A stretch of 36,051 nt of DNA from assembly GCA_002787235.1 (NCBI GenBank), contig PCWG01000018.1, positions 1 through 36,051 on the forward strand. The letters are read 5' to 3'. The translations under genes were made by a program, and so were the position numbers. Of this stretch, positions 1-9,091 are shown piece by piece. The notes below the pieces were generated by a model. It was not told where the DNA came from. It searched no databases and was given only the letters and a program-made list of their open reading frames with translations. Each line of letters begins with the position of its first letter. Position 1 is the stretch's first letter. Source of the DNA: Nitrospinae bacterium CG11_big_fil_rev_8_21_14_0_20_45_15 (lineage in GTDB: Bacteria > Nitrospinota > Nitrospinia > Nitrospinales > VA-1).

Positions 1-644
1 ACATGCATGCACTCATTGACCAGAGCGAAAGCAGAAGTGGAGTTCGTTAGACTTTCGGTGATGGATTTATATTTATGAAACTCCTCCCTCAACACCACAA
101 AGCGAATGGCCTTGATGATGTGCGGGCGCAGAAGTTCCATGATGCGGACTTCCCGCAGGGTGAACGGCTCCAAACAAGGTTGCAGACGGTGAATTCCTAC
201 CCCAAGGTTCGGTTCAGGGCGGTCGACCGCCGCTATCACACCAGTGATATTGTGCAAATATGATAAATCGTCCTGTTCGTATTCGGGATGTTCCCGGATC
301 ATTAAGGATATTTCCGATTCGAGTTCGTTAATATCATGGTCAACTCCATAAGCCACTACAGGCCTGTTGCTGTTAATCGCGGTAATGCTAAGTTGATTAT
401 AAGGAAGCAGGTTTTTAAAAGTTTTGACTGAGGAGTCTTTTATATTAAAACCCTCGATAATCTGGAAATCCAGAATGTCACGGTCCCACATAAGAAAAAC
501 TCCGCCTTGCGCGTCCACTAGCTTCAAAATGTTCTGCTCGAAAATTTGTTTCACTTCCGTGACGCACTCACAGGAGTATAGCTTGTCAATGATCGCTAAG
601 ATTGTTTGGTAATCACTTTCCGGCAACGATACATTTTCGTTCAT
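1..644 (-). CDS. LuxR-family regulator paralogue, N-terminal part (cut by window edge)
   Basis: Reading the minus strand from the ATG at 644 gives 214 open codons with no stop before the window edge, so the C-terminal part is missing. The visible part aligns by eye with the N-terminal half of the neighbouring regulator (641-1771). Shared stretches include an N-terminal NEx-V-LPExDY, RPVVAYGVD, and REVRIMELLRPH. The missing end therefore probably carries a LuxR-type helix-turn-helix, but that is inference. The start ATG overlaps the TGA of the upstream gene in an ATGA (641-644), which suggests translational coupling. The N-terminal half probably senses a ligand or partner (GAF-like or a related fold). 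The ligand cannot be told from the sequence. Confidence 0.75.
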   Translation of the reverse strand, partial: MNENVSLPESDYQTILAIIDKLYSCECVTEVKQIFEQNILKLVDAQGGVFLMWDRDILDFQIIEGFNIKDSSVKTFKNLLPYNQLSITAINSNRPVVAYGVDHDINELESEISLMIREHPEYEQDDLSYLHNITGVIAAVDRPEPNLGVGIHRLQPCLEPFTLREVRIMELLRPHIIKAIRFVVLREEFHKYKSITESLTNSTSAFALVNECMH

Positions 645-1771
645 GACGCTTGTCCCTTATATAGGGCGGCTATCAGCTCGGCGCGCGAATGTATGCCAAA
701 TTTACGATAAATATTTTTCATATGCGTGTTGACAGTGTGCGGACTGACAAACAATCGGGCCGCGATCTCCTTTTCAGAAAATCCTTCCTTAATTAAAAAG
801 ACCAACTCGGTCTCCCGGCTTGTCAGTCCGGCTTCCTGCATTGCCAGATTCAATTTGGAAAGAGGCTCCGTCGTCGGCTTTAGTTTCAAAAGGAGAGTCA
901 GCGTGTCCTCTTGATTTTTCAGTTGGAGACGAACCAGCTCCAGACGAAAAGACCCTAGTGCCGTGGTGTAAAAAAACATCCCAGGTTCGACGTTGTCTAT
1001 TTTATAAGGCGGGTCATATTGGGAAATGATCCGATTCAACAACGAATACAAATCGTCGGGAATTGATTGTCCCTGTTTGAGGCATATCTGATGCCGAAAG
1101 GATTCGGTACAAAAAATAATCTTTCCCTGAACTCCGATCATAGCGGTCGGCGTTAAGGATTTCCCAACGGTTTCTTTCAGCAGAGATTTGTATTGAGTCA
1201 ATTCCTCAGTCAATAAAATGGTTTTGATAGTTTGCAGAAGGTGGGGCCGCAATAATTCCAGGATTCTCACCTCGCGGAGAGTGCATATTTGGTCATCATG
1301 AGGTGGATACCAGTGTACAGCAACTCCCAGGGTCGGGTTTGGCAGGTCGAGAGCGACCAGTCCGTGAACCACCCCGGCCGATAGAATGGATGGATCCTCT
1401 CTATGGTACTGGAGATTCTCTGAGAAGAACCGGTCAACAGCCTCGTTTCCCTCCTCCCTGGAAACATCTACATCGTAAGCAATGACCGGACGTCCGGTTT
1501 CAAGGATTTTGCGAGCCAGCGGGTCGTATGGGATAAAGTCCTGAAACATGCGAAGGTCCGACTCGCCAATCCCGAAACTGTCAATCACCTGGGGACACTG
1601 AATATCAGGATCGGTCCATCTATACAGTCCTCCCTGAGCTTTGAAAATGGAGCTGATGCAGGAATGAAAAGTTTCCTTTAATTCCTTGCGTGAAGTGCAA
1701 CGGTAAAACTTTTCAATCACACTCAGGATGGAAAGGTAGTCTTTCTCCGGCAATAAGACTTCGTTATTCAT
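641..1771 (-). CDS. LuxR-family transcriptional regulator
   Basis: This 376-residue protein ends in a clear LuxR/GerE-type DNA-binding domain (about residues 316-372). It has the pattern LTSRETEL, then SEKEIAARL, then SPHTVNTHMKNIYRK, where the second helix is the recognition helix. The first ~200 residues show no receiver-domain aspartate pattern, so it is not an ordinary response regulator. They look like a globular sensory domain shared with the next gene downstream. A GAGG stands about 10 bases before the ATG. The stop overlaps the next start (ATGA), so the two paralogues form one operon transcribed leftward, away from the stand-alone HTH gene at 2127. Target genes are unknown. Nearby surface-protein genes are possible targets. 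Confidence 0.85.
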   Translation of the reverse strand: MNNEVLLPEKDYLSILSVIEKFYRCTSRKELKETFHSCISSIFKAQGGLYRWTDPDIQCPQVIDSFGIGESDLRMFQDFIPYDPLARKILETGRPVIAYDVDVSREEGNEAVDRFFSENLQYHREDPSILSAGVVHGLVALDLPNPTLGVAVHWYPPHDDQICTLREVRILELLRPHLLQTIKTILLTEELTQYKSLLKETVGKSLTPTAMIGVQGKIIFCTESFRHQICLKQGQSIPDDLYSLLNRIISQYDPPYKIDNVEPGMFFYTTALGSFRLELVRLQLKNQEDTLTLLLKLKPTTEPLSKLNLAMQEAGLTSRETELVFLIKEGFSEKEIAARLFVSPHTVNTHMKNIYRKFGIHSRAELIAALYKGQAS

Positions 1772-2852: not shown

Positions 2853-4631
2853 ATGCGAATAAAAAAATTACTAAAAACAGGTTTGTGTTCATTATTTTTT
2901 TCATTGTTTCTTACAGGATCGGCATTCGCTACAACGATGATTGATGCAGGAGCCTATCAGGGTGTGTATTCCATCTCTGGAGTTGGGACCTGGTCAGCAA
3001 TAACAACACCAACAAATACATTATCATTGCCTGCGAATACCTATGTTCTTACCATACAAAATAGCCGATTTTATTTTGATGTCGACGCGAGCGGGAATGT
3101 CAGCAACAACATTGCCAGCCCCAGTAACAACACCGATTCCCTCATCCTTTCCGGCAATACCATCACCTTCAAAAACACAGCTGTAAACATTGACGCAGGT
3201 GCTTACGAAGGCGTTTATTCCATCAATGGGTGTTGTACTGTTTCTGCTCCAGCGTCCCCGCTAAGAACCCTGACGCTGGTTCCGGGAGTCAACACCTATT
3301 CTCTTGGCATACAAAATAGCAGATTTTACTTTGATATCGATGCCGCCGGGAATGTAAACAACAACGTTGCCAGCCCCAGCACCAACACGGATACCCTCAT
3401 TCTTTCCAGCAATACGATCACCTTTAAAAACACAGCTGTAAATATTAACGCAGGTGCCTATGAAGGCGTTTATTCCATCAATGGGTGCTGTACCGTTTCT
3501 GCTCCAGCGTCCCCGCTAAAGACCGTGACGCTGGTTCCGGGAGTCAACGCCTATAGTCTTGGCATACAAGAAAACAGGTTTTACTTTGATATCGACGCTG
3601 GTGGGAATGTTGGCAATAATGTTACCAGCCCAGGCCCCAACGAAGAGGCTTTTGGTCTTTCGACCAATACCATTACTTTTTTTAATTCCGATATCTTGAT
3701 CGAGCCCAATAATACTTCAATTCCTTGGGGCTTAACTGGTATAGGTGGTACCAAAATCGGACCACAAACATTCACATTGGTGGACGGGGTCACTTATAAA
3801 ATTGCTAACTTAAGTACATCCCCCTACATCAAAGAGCCTTTTAAAGTATTTCACCCCTGTGGAATATTTACGGGCAATCCAGATAACCCAAATGTCCTTG
3901 TTGTTGCCGACGATTCTTTCACCATTACATGTTTCGATTCGACCCCGCCGGACGCCGACGCAGATGGCATCCCGGATGCAAACGACAACTGCCCCAACAT
4001 CGCCAATTCAGACCAGTTGGATCAGGACATTGATGGAATTGGCAATGCCTGCGACAATGATCTGGATGGTGATTTTGTCAATAACAACGTGGACAATTGT
4101 CCTTCTCTGGCGAATCCCGACCAGGCGGACGCGGATGGTGACGGCGTTGGAAATATTTGTGATGGCGATGATGACAATGACAGCGTCAACGATGCTACCG
4201 ACAATTGTCCATTGACGCCAAACACAGACCAGGCGGATGGAGACGGCGACGGTCTGGGAAATGCTTGTGATCCCGACGATGATAATGATGGCGTTGCCGA
4301 TGAGGTGGATAATTGCCCCAACACATCCAATGCCGATCAGGCAGATTTAGACATGGATGGAATTGGCAATGCCTGTGATGGTGATTCCGACGGCGATGGC
4401 ATCATCAACGATGTCGATCAATGTCCGGCAACTCCTGCGGGTTCGTTGATCACTTCTGGAGGTTGCAGTGGATCGGAGTTCATCGAGCTTACCTGCAAAC
4501 CAGAGAACTTCGTGAATCACGGATCGTTTGTGAGCTGTGTGGCTCATACCGCTAACGACTTGGCGGGTCAAGGCGTTATCACTCCAAAGGAGAAAGCCCG
4601 GTTTGTAAATCAAGCGGCTAAAAGCAAGTAA
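2853..4631 (+). CDS. Secreted repeat protein with thrombospondin type-3 calcium-binding region
   Basis: This 592-residue protein starts with a signal peptide (lysines, hydrophobic core, cleavage after SAFA near residue 26). Three homologous repeats of about 83-85 residues follow, starting near residues 29, 112 and 197. Each opens with xIDAGAYxGVYSI and contains RFYFD(V/I)DAxGNV. The second and third copies also share a CC pair. Residues about 367-530 are a thrombospondin type-3-like region: repeated DxDxDGxxDxxDNCP and GNxCD motifs whose aspartates bind calcium in known relatives. A cysteine-containing C-terminal stretch ends in a lysine-rich tail. No membrane anchor or barrel is visible. GGGGAAGGAAAG gives a strong ribosome site, and a terminator follows. 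It probably acts at the cell surface or in the matrix. Confidence 0.85.
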   Translation: MRIKKLLKTGLCSLFFSLFLTGSAFATTMIDAGAYQGVYSISGVGTWSAITTPTNTLSLPANTYVLTIQNSRFYFDVDASGNVSNNIASPSNNTDSLILSGNTITFKNTAVNIDAGAYEGVYSINGCCTVSAPASPLRTLTLVPGVNTYSLGIQNSRFYFDIDAAGNVNNNVASPSTNTDTLILSSNTITFKNTAVNINAGAYEGVYSINGCCTVSAPASPLKTVTLVPGVNAYSLGIQENRFYFDIDAGGNVGNNVTSPGPNEEAFGLSTNTITFFNSDILIEPNNTSIPWGLTGIGGTKIGPQTFTLVDGVTYKIANLSTSPYIKEPFKVFHPCGIFTGNPDNPNVLVVADDSFTITCFDSTPPDADADGIPDANDNCPNIANSDQLDQDIDGIGNACDNDLDGDFVNNNVDNCPSLANPDQADADGDGVGNICDGDDDNDSVNDATDNCPLTPNTDQADGDGDGLGNACDPDDDNDGVADEVDNCPNTSNADQADLDMDGIGNACDGDSDGDGIINDVDQCPATPAGSLITSGGCSGSEFIELTCKPENFVNHGSFVSCVAHTANDLAGQGVITPKEKARFVNQAAKSK

Positions 4632-5185: not shown

Positions 5186-5272
5186 CTTGATTCTTGGTAT
5201 CGATATTTTCTTAATTAAGGAAAATTTTTAGCGAAGTTTTGCGTGAAACAAATGCGCTACAGGAGAACTGGC

Positions 5273-5443
5273 GTGGACCTGAAGTTGATTAAAACAGAAG
5301 AGGATTTGCAGTCCACCCTCTACGCTATGCAGGTTACCGGCAAGCTTTACGCCGATATGATCCAAGGCGCGTTTGACCAAGTGGATAACCGAAAGGACCG
5401 GGGCGTCGTCTCCAGTGCGGAGAAATATTTAAAATTGGAATGA
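5273..5443 (+). CDS. Small hypothetical protein, 56 aa, coupled to methyltransferase
   Basis: The frame is open from a GTG at 5243. The best start is the GTG at 5273, because CAGGAG lies seven bases before it. The 56-residue product is polar and probably helical (IKTEEDLQSTLYAMQVTGKLYADMIQGAFDQ). It has no membrane span, cysteine pair or known motif. Its TGA overlaps the ATG of the methyltransferase gene (ATGA at 5440-5443), so the two are translationally coupled. Its role is unknown. It could be a carrier, chaperone or regulatory partner of the enzymes that follow. Confidence 0.55.
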   Translation: MDLKLIKTEEDLQSTLYAMQVTGKLYADMIQGAFDQVDNRKDRGVVSSAEKYLKLE

Positions 5444-6192
5444 ATAGTGAGTTAGAGGATGAAAAAATCATGATGGATTGGACTTGTTATTCTCATTCAT
5501 ACGACTTAATGGCGGAAAACAATCCTGCATATCAGGAAATCCTAGATTGTTATGCCAAAACGATATCACAATTAAATTTAAATACGAGTTCGGTCGTCGC
5601 AGACATTGGAGGAGGTACCGGAAATTTCTCGATAATGACGGCAAAGGTATATCCAGATTGCCGTGTATTGTATTACGACTTCAATTCGACAATGCTTCGG
5701 TTTGCAAAAGATAAGGCCGTAAAAGAAGGAATTCGAAATATTGAATTTGGTATTCATGATTTTGACCTATGCCCGTCAAATTCTCAAAAATTCTCTTTAA
5801 TTGTATGCATTCATTCAATTTATACGATGAAGAACCCACTAGGCTTAATAAAATTGATTTATGAAATGCTGTCTCCAGGAGGACATGTTTTTGCCTGTGA
5901 TCTTGGTCGTACGCTCAATATCATGGATTGGACAAAATATATTTTCAGTTCCTTGAGAGGAACCCATGGAATGGTTCACGCATTGAAAATATTACTTAAA
6001 GGGAGGGAAGTCGCTCGTGCCAATTATGATATTTCAAAACTTCAAAAATCTGGGCAATTTTGGCTACATGAATTGGATGATTTTATCTATGCCTTCACAA
6101 ATTGTGGCTTTGAAATCGGGGAGGCAAAAAAAATGTATCGAGGATACAGCGATCTAGTATTTGCCCAGAAGCCTATGTTAAAGGGAAATTGA
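5440..6192 (+). CDS. Class I SAM-dependent methyltransferase
   Basis: This 250-residue protein has the Rossmann glycine motif of class I methyltransferases, VADIGGGTGNFS (residues 53-64). An acidic residue ends strand 2 (YYDFN, about 79), and SPGGHVFACDLG is the usual post-motif region. The opening MDWTCYSHSYDLM resembles small-molecule methyltransferases of the UbiE/Methyltransf_25 kind. The C-terminal third (RGTHGMVHALKILLKGREVARANYD) is family-specific, and I cannot name the substrate. The start overlaps the preceding small gene. The stop is followed five bases later by the acyltransferase fusion, so the three form one unit. The DNA is visibly AT-richer than the housekeeping genes to the right, which suggests horizontal transfer. 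Confidence 0.8.
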   Translation: MNSELEDEKIMMDWTCYSHSYDLMAENNPAYQEILDCYAKTISQLNLNTSSVVADIGGGTGNFSIMTAKVYPDCRVLYYDFNSTMLRFAKDKAVKEGIRNIEFGIHDFDLCPSNSQKFSLIVCIHSIYTMKNPLGLIKLIYEMLSPGGHVFACDLGRTLNIMDWTKYIFSSLRGTHGMVHALKILLKGREVARANYDISKLQKSGQFWLHELDDFIYAFTNCGFEIGEAKKMYRGYSDLVFAQKPMLKGN

Positions 6193-6196
6193 TGCT

Positions 6197-7333
6197 GTGA
6201 AAAAATATATGCAAGCAACATGTAAATCATCTGAAGTTATTATTTCCAAGGCAGAAAACGAAGAAGAGAAGATGATGATTTATCATCAAAGATACCAAAT
6301 AACCGTTGAGGAAATGTTGCAAAACCAAAAATGGGCCAACCATCAGGAAAAGTTCATTAAAGATGATTTGGATGATAGTTCCGACATTTATTATGCTCAT
6401 GTAGATGGAGAAATTATAGCGAATATGAGAATAACTTGGGGTGCTTTGAAATTACCTGACAATGCCGAATATGTGTACGGAGTTTCAAAATTTTCCAGAT
6501 ATCTTTTAGAGGAAATATGTTTTACCAATAGGCTTATGGTCGTAAAGGAATGGCGGAACTCCATGGTATTGGGAATGCTATTAAAATATGCCTTCAAGAA
6601 TGCCGTGGTTCGTGGTATTCGGTTGGATTTGACTTTTTGTACTCCAGGGTTGGTTGGGTTATATGAATCGCTTGGATATAGAAAATTTAAAGAAAATGTA
6701 ATATTCCCAGATATTGGTTTTCGGGTGCCATTGGCGTTTTTGACTAGAGATATAAACTATCTAAATAAAATAAAATCCCCTTTTCTTCGTACCGCTAAAA
6801 GCTTGACGGTTGAAAATGATTCTGGGAACTGGTTTAAAGAAACATTTCATTATGTCGCCGAAATGGAATCGGATTTTATTTTATCGAACAGAATCCTTAA
6901 AGCAATTAATTTATTCGATGGATTCAATGATGGTGAGCTCCAAAAAATAGTGGATTCTTCCAGTTTCTTAAAAATTGAAAGTCGACAGACTATCATTCGA
7001 GAGGGTGATGCGAGCAATGATTTGTTTGTTGTTTTGGAAGGGCAGGCAGAACTCATATTGAAATCCGGAAATCAAAGGCCTGTGGTTGAGATGCTTTCCG
7101 TTGGAGATGTATTTGGTGAATTGTCGTTTCTGATTTCTGTCAGGAGCCCTTTGGAGGTTAGAACATTGACGCCAATAAAGGTTTTGGTGGTAGATAAAAG
7201 TATTTTACAAAAAGGAATAAAAAGATTTCCTTATATAGGGGTTAAGTTGATGCATAACTTATCAAAAATTATTTGTCAAAGACAATTTCAACAGATTGGT
7301 TCTTTATCGCTTTGTTTTGAACGTGGGATTTGA
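6197..7333 (+). CDS. Acyltransferase (GNAT; LuxI/FeeM-like)-cyclic-nucleotide-binding domain fusion
   Basis: This 378-residue protein has two domains. Residues about 12-185 have a GNAT-like layout: IYHQRYQITVEEM at the front, YYAHVDGEIIANMRI as paired strands, EICFTNRLMVV, then GLVGLYESLGYRKF near the end. The arrangement recalls N-acyl amino acid synthases and LuxI-type enzymes, which take acyl groups from acyl-ACP. Residues about 235-365 are a Crp/cNMP-type beta-barrel: FDGFNDGELQKI, REGDASNDLFVVLEGQAEL, then GDVFGELSFLISVRSP at the phosphate-binding cassette. No helix-turn-helix follows. A nucleotide might therefore switch the acyltransferase, but this is inference. GTG at 6197 is chosen because AAAGGGA precedes it; ATG at 6209 is an alternative. 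The DNA is AT-rich like the previous gene. Confidence 0.75.
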   Translation: MKKYMQATCKSSEVIISKAENEEEKMMIYHQRYQITVEEMLQNQKWANHQEKFIKDDLDDSSDIYYAHVDGEIIANMRITWGALKLPDNAEYVYGVSKFSRYLLEEICFTNRLMVVKEWRNSMVLGMLLKYAFKNAVVRGIRLDLTFCTPGLVGLYESLGYRKFKENVIFPDIGFRVPLAFLTRDINYLNKIKSPFLRTAKSLTVENDSGNWFKETFHYVAEMESDFILSNRILKAINLFDGFNDGELQKIVDSSSFLKIESRQTIIREGDASNDLFVVLEGQAELILKSGNQRPVVEMLSVGDVFGELSFLISVRSPLEVRTLTPIKVLVVDKSILQKGIKRFPYIGVKLMHNLSKIICQRQFQQIGSLSLCFERGI

Positions 7334-7806: not shown

Positions 7807-7822
7807 CCGAATGGAGAAAATA

Positions 7823-9091
7823 ATGAAAACCTTTACGAAAAATCCATATGTAATTTTTTACATGAGTTTTATATTTTTATTCCTTCAATTTGCGAGTGCT
7901 GTTTTAGTTGATCACTCAGCTTGGACCAACATTGCTTTTGCAAAAGACAATGACAAAGATAAAGACAGTGACAAAGAATTAAAAGGCAACAAACTACTGA
8001 TTCAAGCTGTACAAGACTTGCAAGGACAAACCGCCGATCTTCAAAATCAAATCAATAACATCGAGTTAACCCCCGGACCACAAGGCCCTGCGGGTCCACA
8101 AGGTCCCGTTGGTTTGACTGGAGCCACAGGACCGCAAGGTCTTCCCGGCAACAATGGGACCGATGGTGCAACCGGTCCTCAAGGTCCGCAAGGACCTGCC
8201 GGTCAAGACGTTGACCCTGCCGTGTTAGCGGCTTTGCAAGCCAATATTGTTACGTTACAGAATCAGGTTGCGGCACTCATCACACAGAATGCTACTCTGC
8301 AAACCCAGGTCAATGCCCTCTCCAATATCAACACGGTGGCATTGACCACCGATGTGAGCGACCTCAAAAACCGCCTCACGGGTGTCTCTCGTAATGGTAA
8401 CACCCTGTTGTTCTCCGGCATGAACTTGCAGGTAGTCAGCGGGTCTGGGGCAACCGATGGAGTCGTCAATGGCCTGGGCAATGTGATCGTCGGTTACGAT
8501 GAGAACATGGGGGCTACCGAGTCGGCGCAATTGTCATTTGCGCCAGGAAAAACGGGCTCACACAACCTTGTCGTCGGAATGGGTCACAGTTATCTGGGGT
8601 ACGGTGGGTTGGTGGTCGGGCATTCCAATGCTATAGGTACGGTAGATGGTGCGGGCGTGGTGACTGGAAATTTTTCATCAGTGACAACGGGCTATATGAA
8701 CCAGGCCACAGGGGAATATGCCTCTGTAAATGGTGGCGCATACAACAAGGCGTCTAATATGGCGGCTACCGCTACAGGCTATAACAATACCGCTTCGGGA
8801 CCCTACTCCAATGTCAGTGGTGGACAATCTAATACTGCCCAAGGTAGTTATTCCTCAATCAGCGGAGGAGCCAATGGTTTTGCCAATGGAGATTACGCGT
8901 CTATAAGTGGTGGAAATTTGAACACTGCCGGTGGATATGCGACTTCCATTGCAGGGGGAATTTATAATCTAACGACAGGAACATATTCTGTCATCTCTGG
9001 AGGAGGATATAACTTATCTTCGGGATTTGCATCTACTGTAGGTGGGGGATATCAGCAAGCGGCATACCTCCAATGGCACGCTGTCAATTGA
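7823..9091 (+). CDS. Collagen-like surface protein with trimeric-adhesin head-like repeats
   Basis: ATG at 7823 is chosen over ATG at 7811 because GGAG lies six bases before it, giving 422 residues. The N-terminus is a long hydrophobic export signal. A short coiled coil ([19 protein letters not shown]) leads into about 15 Gly-X-Y triplets ([19 protein letters not shown] and on), then a second coiled coil. From about residue 190 come head-like repeats in the style of YadA/Hia adhesins, with units such as [24 protein letters not shown] about every 14-16 residues. The protein stops inside this region. No C-terminal beta-barrel anchor is visible, so it is either secreted or truncated. It is probably a trimeric surface or matrix protein. 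Confidence 0.8.

Follow-up and report, generated by a model that had tools for sequence, protein, structure and literature searches.

A FeeM-like acyltransferase–cNMP-binding fusion and its linked methyltransferase in a Nitrospinae bacterium: a candidate acylation and methylation pathway

The window analysed here, a stretch of 36,051 nucleotides from a Nitrospinae bacterium, encodes an acyltransferase fused to a cyclic-nucleotide-binding-type domain beside a SAM-dependent methyltransferase. Which genes belong together at this locus, what might they make, and how might the product be controlled? In the explanation that we put forward, an acylation is followed by a methylation, a cNMP-binding-type domain (cNBD) gates the acyltransferase, and the genes arrived as a lateral cassette; taken as a whole, we hold it slightly more probable than its negation. 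That acylation and methylation belong to one pathway is, judging from gene content and gene order, likely.

Gene layout and unit membership

An earlier note on this DNA had described three ORFs at the locus, and all three are present where it had put them. They and the parts of ORF3 discussed below are as follows (window positions).

5273..5443, plus strand: ORF1, 56-aa protein; start GTG at 5273, stop at 5441-5443
5440..6192, plus strand: ORF2, class I SAM-dependent methyltransferase of the FeeM-linked clade
6197..7333, plus strand: ORF3, acyltransferase-cNBD fusion of 378 aa with a GTG start; domain order as in protein P0008 of genome G394
6341..6724, plus strand: FeeM-like GNAT domain of ORF3; residues 49-176 match PF21926, and the whole domain spans approximately residues 1-215
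6893..7273, plus strand: cNMP_binding domain of ORF3 (PF00027), residues 233-359
7103..7159, plus strand: phosphate-binding cassette of ORF3, GDVFGELSFLISVRSPLEV, placed by alignment with the cNBDs of other loci

ORF1 is preceded by a Shine-Dalgarno sequence, AGGAG, at 5261-5265. The start and stop arrangement had been part of the case for one functional unit. The ATG of ORF2 at 5440 does share ATGA with the stop of ORF1, whereas the gap between ORF2 and ORF3 is 4 bases in length and not 5, as had been given. The ATGA start of ORF2 is itself uncertain, since a further in-frame ATG at 5470 has GAGG ahead of it.

The 56-residue ORF1 had also been counted as a member of the unit. No relatives of ORF1 were found in 77 genomes of the phylum, and no match was obtained in Pfam, NCBIfam, PADLOC or PHROGs. 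Its GC3 is 0.63, compared to 0.34 for ORF2, 0.32-0.34 for ORF3 and a range of 0.40-0.55 across the remaining window genes sampled. Because of the lack of relatives and the different base composition, ORF1 is probably an unrelated neighbour, and the functional unit probably consists of two genes, ORF2 and ORF3. A three-gene unit is therefore unsupported. The earlier note had named, as an outcome that would speak against it, three genes that never occur together in relatives; this is what was found for ORF1 only, whereas the ORF2-ORF3 pairing recurs. ORF1 was also considered as a truncated FeeM N-terminus; the likeness was by eye only, and the candidate was rejected.

Large secreted-looking proteins are encoded on either side of the ORF2/ORF3 pair (window 2853-4631 and 7811-9091), with thrombospondin type 3 repeats in one flank and a collagen-like stretch in the other. 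A gene for a LuxR-type (GerE) regulator is located ∼3.5 kb upstream of the pair on the minus strand (window 641-1771); nothing ties this regulator to the pair.

The acyltransferase domain and its methyltransferase partner

The N-terminal domain of ORF3 had been read as a GNAT-like domain of LuxI/FeeM character. Its best Pfam match is FeeM (PF21926, N-acyl amino acid synthase), with an E-value of 1.6e-5; the score is 25.2 bits for the domain alone and 23.5 bits for whole ORF3, below the gathering cut-off of 27 bits. The remaining weak Pfam matches are all GNAT in nature, including Acetyltransf_5, which FeeM outranks, and the LuxI family Autoind_synth (PF00765) is absent from the Pfam families listed for ORF3. 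Residues R32, D56, D59, R78 and R112 are invariant across ten aligned rows, ORF3 and nine FeeM-type sequences. The best match and these five positions support the FeeM/LuxI character proposed for the domain.

Like FeeM-type synthases, among them NasY of stieleriacine producers, ORF3 thus has PF21926 as its best match and shows the R32, D56xxD59, R78, R112 pattern. Different from them, it stays under the family cut-off, lacks the Asp/Glu that other FeeMs carry three residues before R112 and possesses a C-terminal cNBD. Comparison of a profile of the linked FeeM proteins with the ORF3 domain was non-significant (Prob 1.3), in a shallow comparison that did not separate the domain from a general GNAT either. 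AlphaFold models of whole ORF3 and its first domain, based on 4- and 3-row alignments, have pLDDT values of 43 and 37, and because these models are poor, the fold is unproven. A GNAT protein of a Salmonella plasmid was rejected as the nearest relative of the ORF3 domain, as 28% identity with an E-value of 2e-4 is too weak, and its neighbours differ. On that plasmid (CP152067.1, L026:4929-8129), GNAT, ThiF-family and SAM methyltransferase genes are consecutive, recalling the stieleriacine clusters.

ORF2 matches Pfam Methyltransf_31 (PF13847) with an E-value of 3e-16; it shares 38% identity with a protein encoded on a Sulfitobacter plasmid and contains the conserved motifs DW..Y...YD, D.G.GTGN and YRGxSD. 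Its NCBIfam matches spread across UbiE, BioC, Tam and ArsM, so its substrate is unreadable from the sequence. A defence-system reading, suggested by PADLOC mads_2 on ORF2 and Pycsar TIR effectors on the cNBD, was discarded, as these matches stem from shared domains.

A FeeM-type gene adjoins the ORF2-type methyltransferase in all 14 loci found, which lie in three phyla (13/13 besides the window; genome samples were partial). The loci include the window, Sulfitobacter plasmids, Deinococcus, Thalassococcus and Rhodobacterales HKCCSP123, the last two coming from a genome contig scan, and seven loci from family and phylum samples (genomes G358, G219, G319, G133, G191, G682 and G452). The best relatives of ORF2 are located on the Sulfitobacter and Deinococcus plasmids, where the adjoining genes match FeeM PF21926 with E-values of 2e-35 and 7e-26, respectively. 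In G452, a stretch of N interrupts the FeeM-type neighbour, of which the legible portion has a weak FeeM match (E=0.0013). The FeeM-linked methyltransferases, including ORF2, form one clade with an SH-aLRT of 98 in a quick tree (12/12 linked rows). None of the 52 other methyltransferase loci from the contig scan, some of them on short contigs, has a FeeM-type neighbour at an E-value of 1e-3. Since all 14 related methyltransferase loci adjoin a FeeM-type gene, the ORF2-ORF3 pairing is more than chance.

ORF2-type methyltransferases are rare, with 6/298 genomes of the Thalassococcus family and 3/349 Pseudomonadota; in Planctomycetota and Myxococcota samples, which held no positive control, none was found at E≤1e-30. 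The methyltransferase and FeeM of G358 form one ORF of 499 aa, for which a lost stop codon or an assembly error is possible. At another locus, ∼1.5 kb upstream of a methyltransferase-FeeM pair, a gene encodes a cNMP-binding protein that stands alone and has a hydrophobic N-terminus (L029:5660-6337). On a second plasmid of Sulfitobacter OXR-159 (L025:4635-6381), an IS256 transposase lies directly ahead of a shortened methyltransferase copy, followed by intact acyltransferase and kinase genes.

Convergent methyltransferases and the site of methylation

A FeeM scan of 398 Pseudomonadota identified two further FeeM-cNBD fusions, in genomes G394 and G557. The G394 fusion is of the same domain order as ORF3 (FeeM E=1e-24; cNMP E=3e-21) and shares an ATGA overlap with a leucine carboxyl methyltransferase family gene (E=8e-31). 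The G557 fusion (L164:9405-10382) is of the reversed order, cNBD-FeeM, and overlaps a gene of the fatty acid hydroxylase family. On the Loktanella salsilacus plasmid NZ_CP072993.1 (L165:7646-8742), a gene annotated in the record as acyl-homoserine-lactone synthase matches FeeM with an E-value of 1e-37, against 2e-5 for Autoind_synth; it overlaps a gene for a membrane methyltransferase of PEMT/ICMT type, which the record of a second plasmid names as isoprenylcysteine carboxylmethyltransferase family. Applied to the 30 top FeeM loci from the 398-genome scan, the ORF2-type model recovered only the two known pairs.

FeeM is hence joined to three unrelated methyltransferase families, the ORF2-type, the leucine-carboxyl-methyltransferase and the ICMT-like family, which speaks for methylation of the acylated product. 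Carboxyl methylation gives two of the three their names, so methyl esters are favoured, a family name being something other than a tested function. The earlier proposal that the methyltransferase acts on the acylated product gains, at the level of gene arrangement, from the conserved pair, the one in-frame fusion and the two convergent pairings, which suggest such a link.

Two other FeeM-type proteins carry additional parts. In a 642-aa protein (genome G381, L149:891-2819), a weak match to class V aminotransferases comes after the FeeM-type domain. A 440-aa protein (genome G705, L152:1337-2659) matches FeeM strongly (E=6e-45), and its C-terminal part is PilZ-like by eye; Pfam gave it no name.

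With regard to substrates, site of methylation, direction of control and signalling role, we infer the following scheme. The N-terminal domain of ORF3 would take a fatty acyl group from acyl-ACP or acyl-CoA and attach it to the amino nitrogen of an amino acid or a similar amine, as FeeM does. Using SAM, ORF2 would then methylate this product, with the carboxyl group as the most likely site, so that an N-acyl amino acid methyl ester would result. The cNBD-type domain of ORF3 would gate the acyltransferase on a small ligand, be it cAMP, cGMP or another. For the product to be a carboxyl methyl ester is a fair possibility, somewhat short of even.

The methyl group may instead go elsewhere, to the ring of N-acyl tyrosines by C- or O-methylation, as in the stieleriacines, or to nitrogen. 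In the Stieleria clusters, methyltransferase, ThiF and nitroreductase genes accompany that for an N-acyl amino acid synthase, and the clusters give rise to N-acyl dehydrotyrosines methylated on the ring (PMC7293339, PMC12479983). Like these clusters, the window links a FeeM-like domain to a methyltransferase gene, and ORF2 has UbiE-like matches. However, the loci inspected showed neither a ThiF nor a nitroreductase gene next to the pair, and the two unrelated methyltransferases joined to FeeM belong to families named for carboxyl methylation (LCM and ICMT). We therefore consider methylation at these other positions unlikely.

If the carboxyl is methylated, the pairing bears on NAMEs, the chemistry expected of a FeeM and a carboxyl methyltransferase, and such a pair is present on the Loktanella plasmid. 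According to a 2024 study, candidate genes for the NAME synthase had yet to be found (PMC11580390). As a hypothesis, the FeeM-methyltransferase partnership is a candidate source of marine NAME lipids, the L. salsilacus strain not being a documented NAME producer; FeeM together with a methyltransferase in Sulfitobacter, Thalassococcus and Loktanella provides a concrete NAME synthase candidate.

Ligand control, roseobacter operons and origin

The C-terminal domain of ORF3 matches cNMP_binding (PF00027) with an E-value of 4e-14 and a score of 52.8 bits (cut-off 27.5), and no helix-turn-helix was found in ORF3 with Pfam; the description of a Crp-type barrel without a DNA-binding domain is thus borne out. 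Among solved structures, its best matches are PKA regulatory subunits, with E-values down to 2e-15. In the cassette, FGELSFLISVRSPLEV, the Glu is kept, Ser is located at the position where most aligned cNBDs carry the phosphate-binding Arg, and the Arg sits one residue early. The cassette of the G557 fusion is also missing the phosphate-binding Arg.

Control by a cyclic nucleotide, as first suggested for this protein, is plausible, with a class III cyclase present in the host genome, but it is weakened by the displaced Arg. Because the binding cassette is atypical, a ligand other than cAMP or cGMP was considered. Regulation of the ORF3 acyltransferase by its cNBD seems to us a little better than an even call, whereas regulation by canonical cAMP or cGMP can be proposed only tentatively. 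FeeM-cNMP-type fusions in both domain orders suggest that a small ligand can directly switch N-acyl amino acid synthesis; a limited literature search found no published account of such fusions.

A fusion of this kind could also acetylate protein lysines under the control of a ligand, as mycobacterial PatA (Rv0998) does, with the methyltransferase as a chance neighbour or a protein-modifying enzyme. MtPatA is a cNBD-GNAT enzyme under cAMP control, so the design is established (PMC4964394). Like PatA, ORF3 joins a cNMP-binding domain to a GNAT-type acyltransferase; its N-terminal domain also matches general GNAT families weakly, and the NCBIfam model ActPatMycb56 matches its cNBD. Different from PatA, in which the N-terminal cNBD is followed by the GNAT domain, ORF3 has the reversed order, a FeeM-like type of acyltransferase with FeeM as its best Pfam match, and a displaced cassette Arg. 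The NCBIfam match (NF058543) covers the cNBD only and scores 21.7 bits, where the cut-off is 460. PatA acts on protein lysines, whereas ORF3 gave no sign of a protein substrate, and the methyltransferase clade always occurs with FeeM-type genes. Such a protein-modifying role is improbable.

The preferred reading, a ligand-gated synthase of a methylated acyl product, has a close parallel in the methyltransferase-FeeM-kinase operons of roseobacters (Sulfitobacter, Thalassococcus and relatives), in which a methyltransferase of the same clade has a FeeM-type neighbour in the same direction. Different from ORF3, the roseobacter FeeM is stand-alone (fused to the methyltransferase in one genome), with a kinase gene next to the pair; the acyltransferase of the window instead carries a sensor-type domain within the same protein, and no kinase or other receptor gene adjoins ORF2/ORF3. 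Where roseobacter loci were examined closely, a membrane sensor histidine kinase gene accompanies the pair, and in several of them response regulators are nearby. Relatives of this kinase adjoin a LuxI-type synthase in Sulfitobacter pontiacus and the FeeM gene in Loktanella salsilacus. These operons look like signalling operons. A system that in roseobacters would signal through a dedicated histidine kinase, and whose synthase would carry its own ligand-sensing domain in the organism of the window, is on balance doubtful.

Aminolipid pathways employ N-acyltransferases, and the ORF3 domain matches Acetyltransf_5 weakly, but with the higher-ranking FeeM match, no second acyltransferase gene nearby, and the sensor kinase and response regulators of the roseobacter loci, it is more improbable still that the pair makes an acyl-amino-acid membrane lipid, an ornithine-lipid-like aminolipid with a methylated head group, rather than a signal.

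As for origin, no relatives of the ORF3 domain were found in viral contigs, and ORF2 had no matches in phage records at E≤1e-10. The base composition of ORF2 and ORF3 is odd relative to the sampled neighbours. Among the 77 genomes of the phylum, the acyltransferase domain of ORF3 matches its own genome only; its absence from the other 76 suggests lateral acquisition, and ORF2 and ORF3 were probably acquired together as a cassette. In two relatives, other genes occupy the region upstream of the ilvB-like gene.
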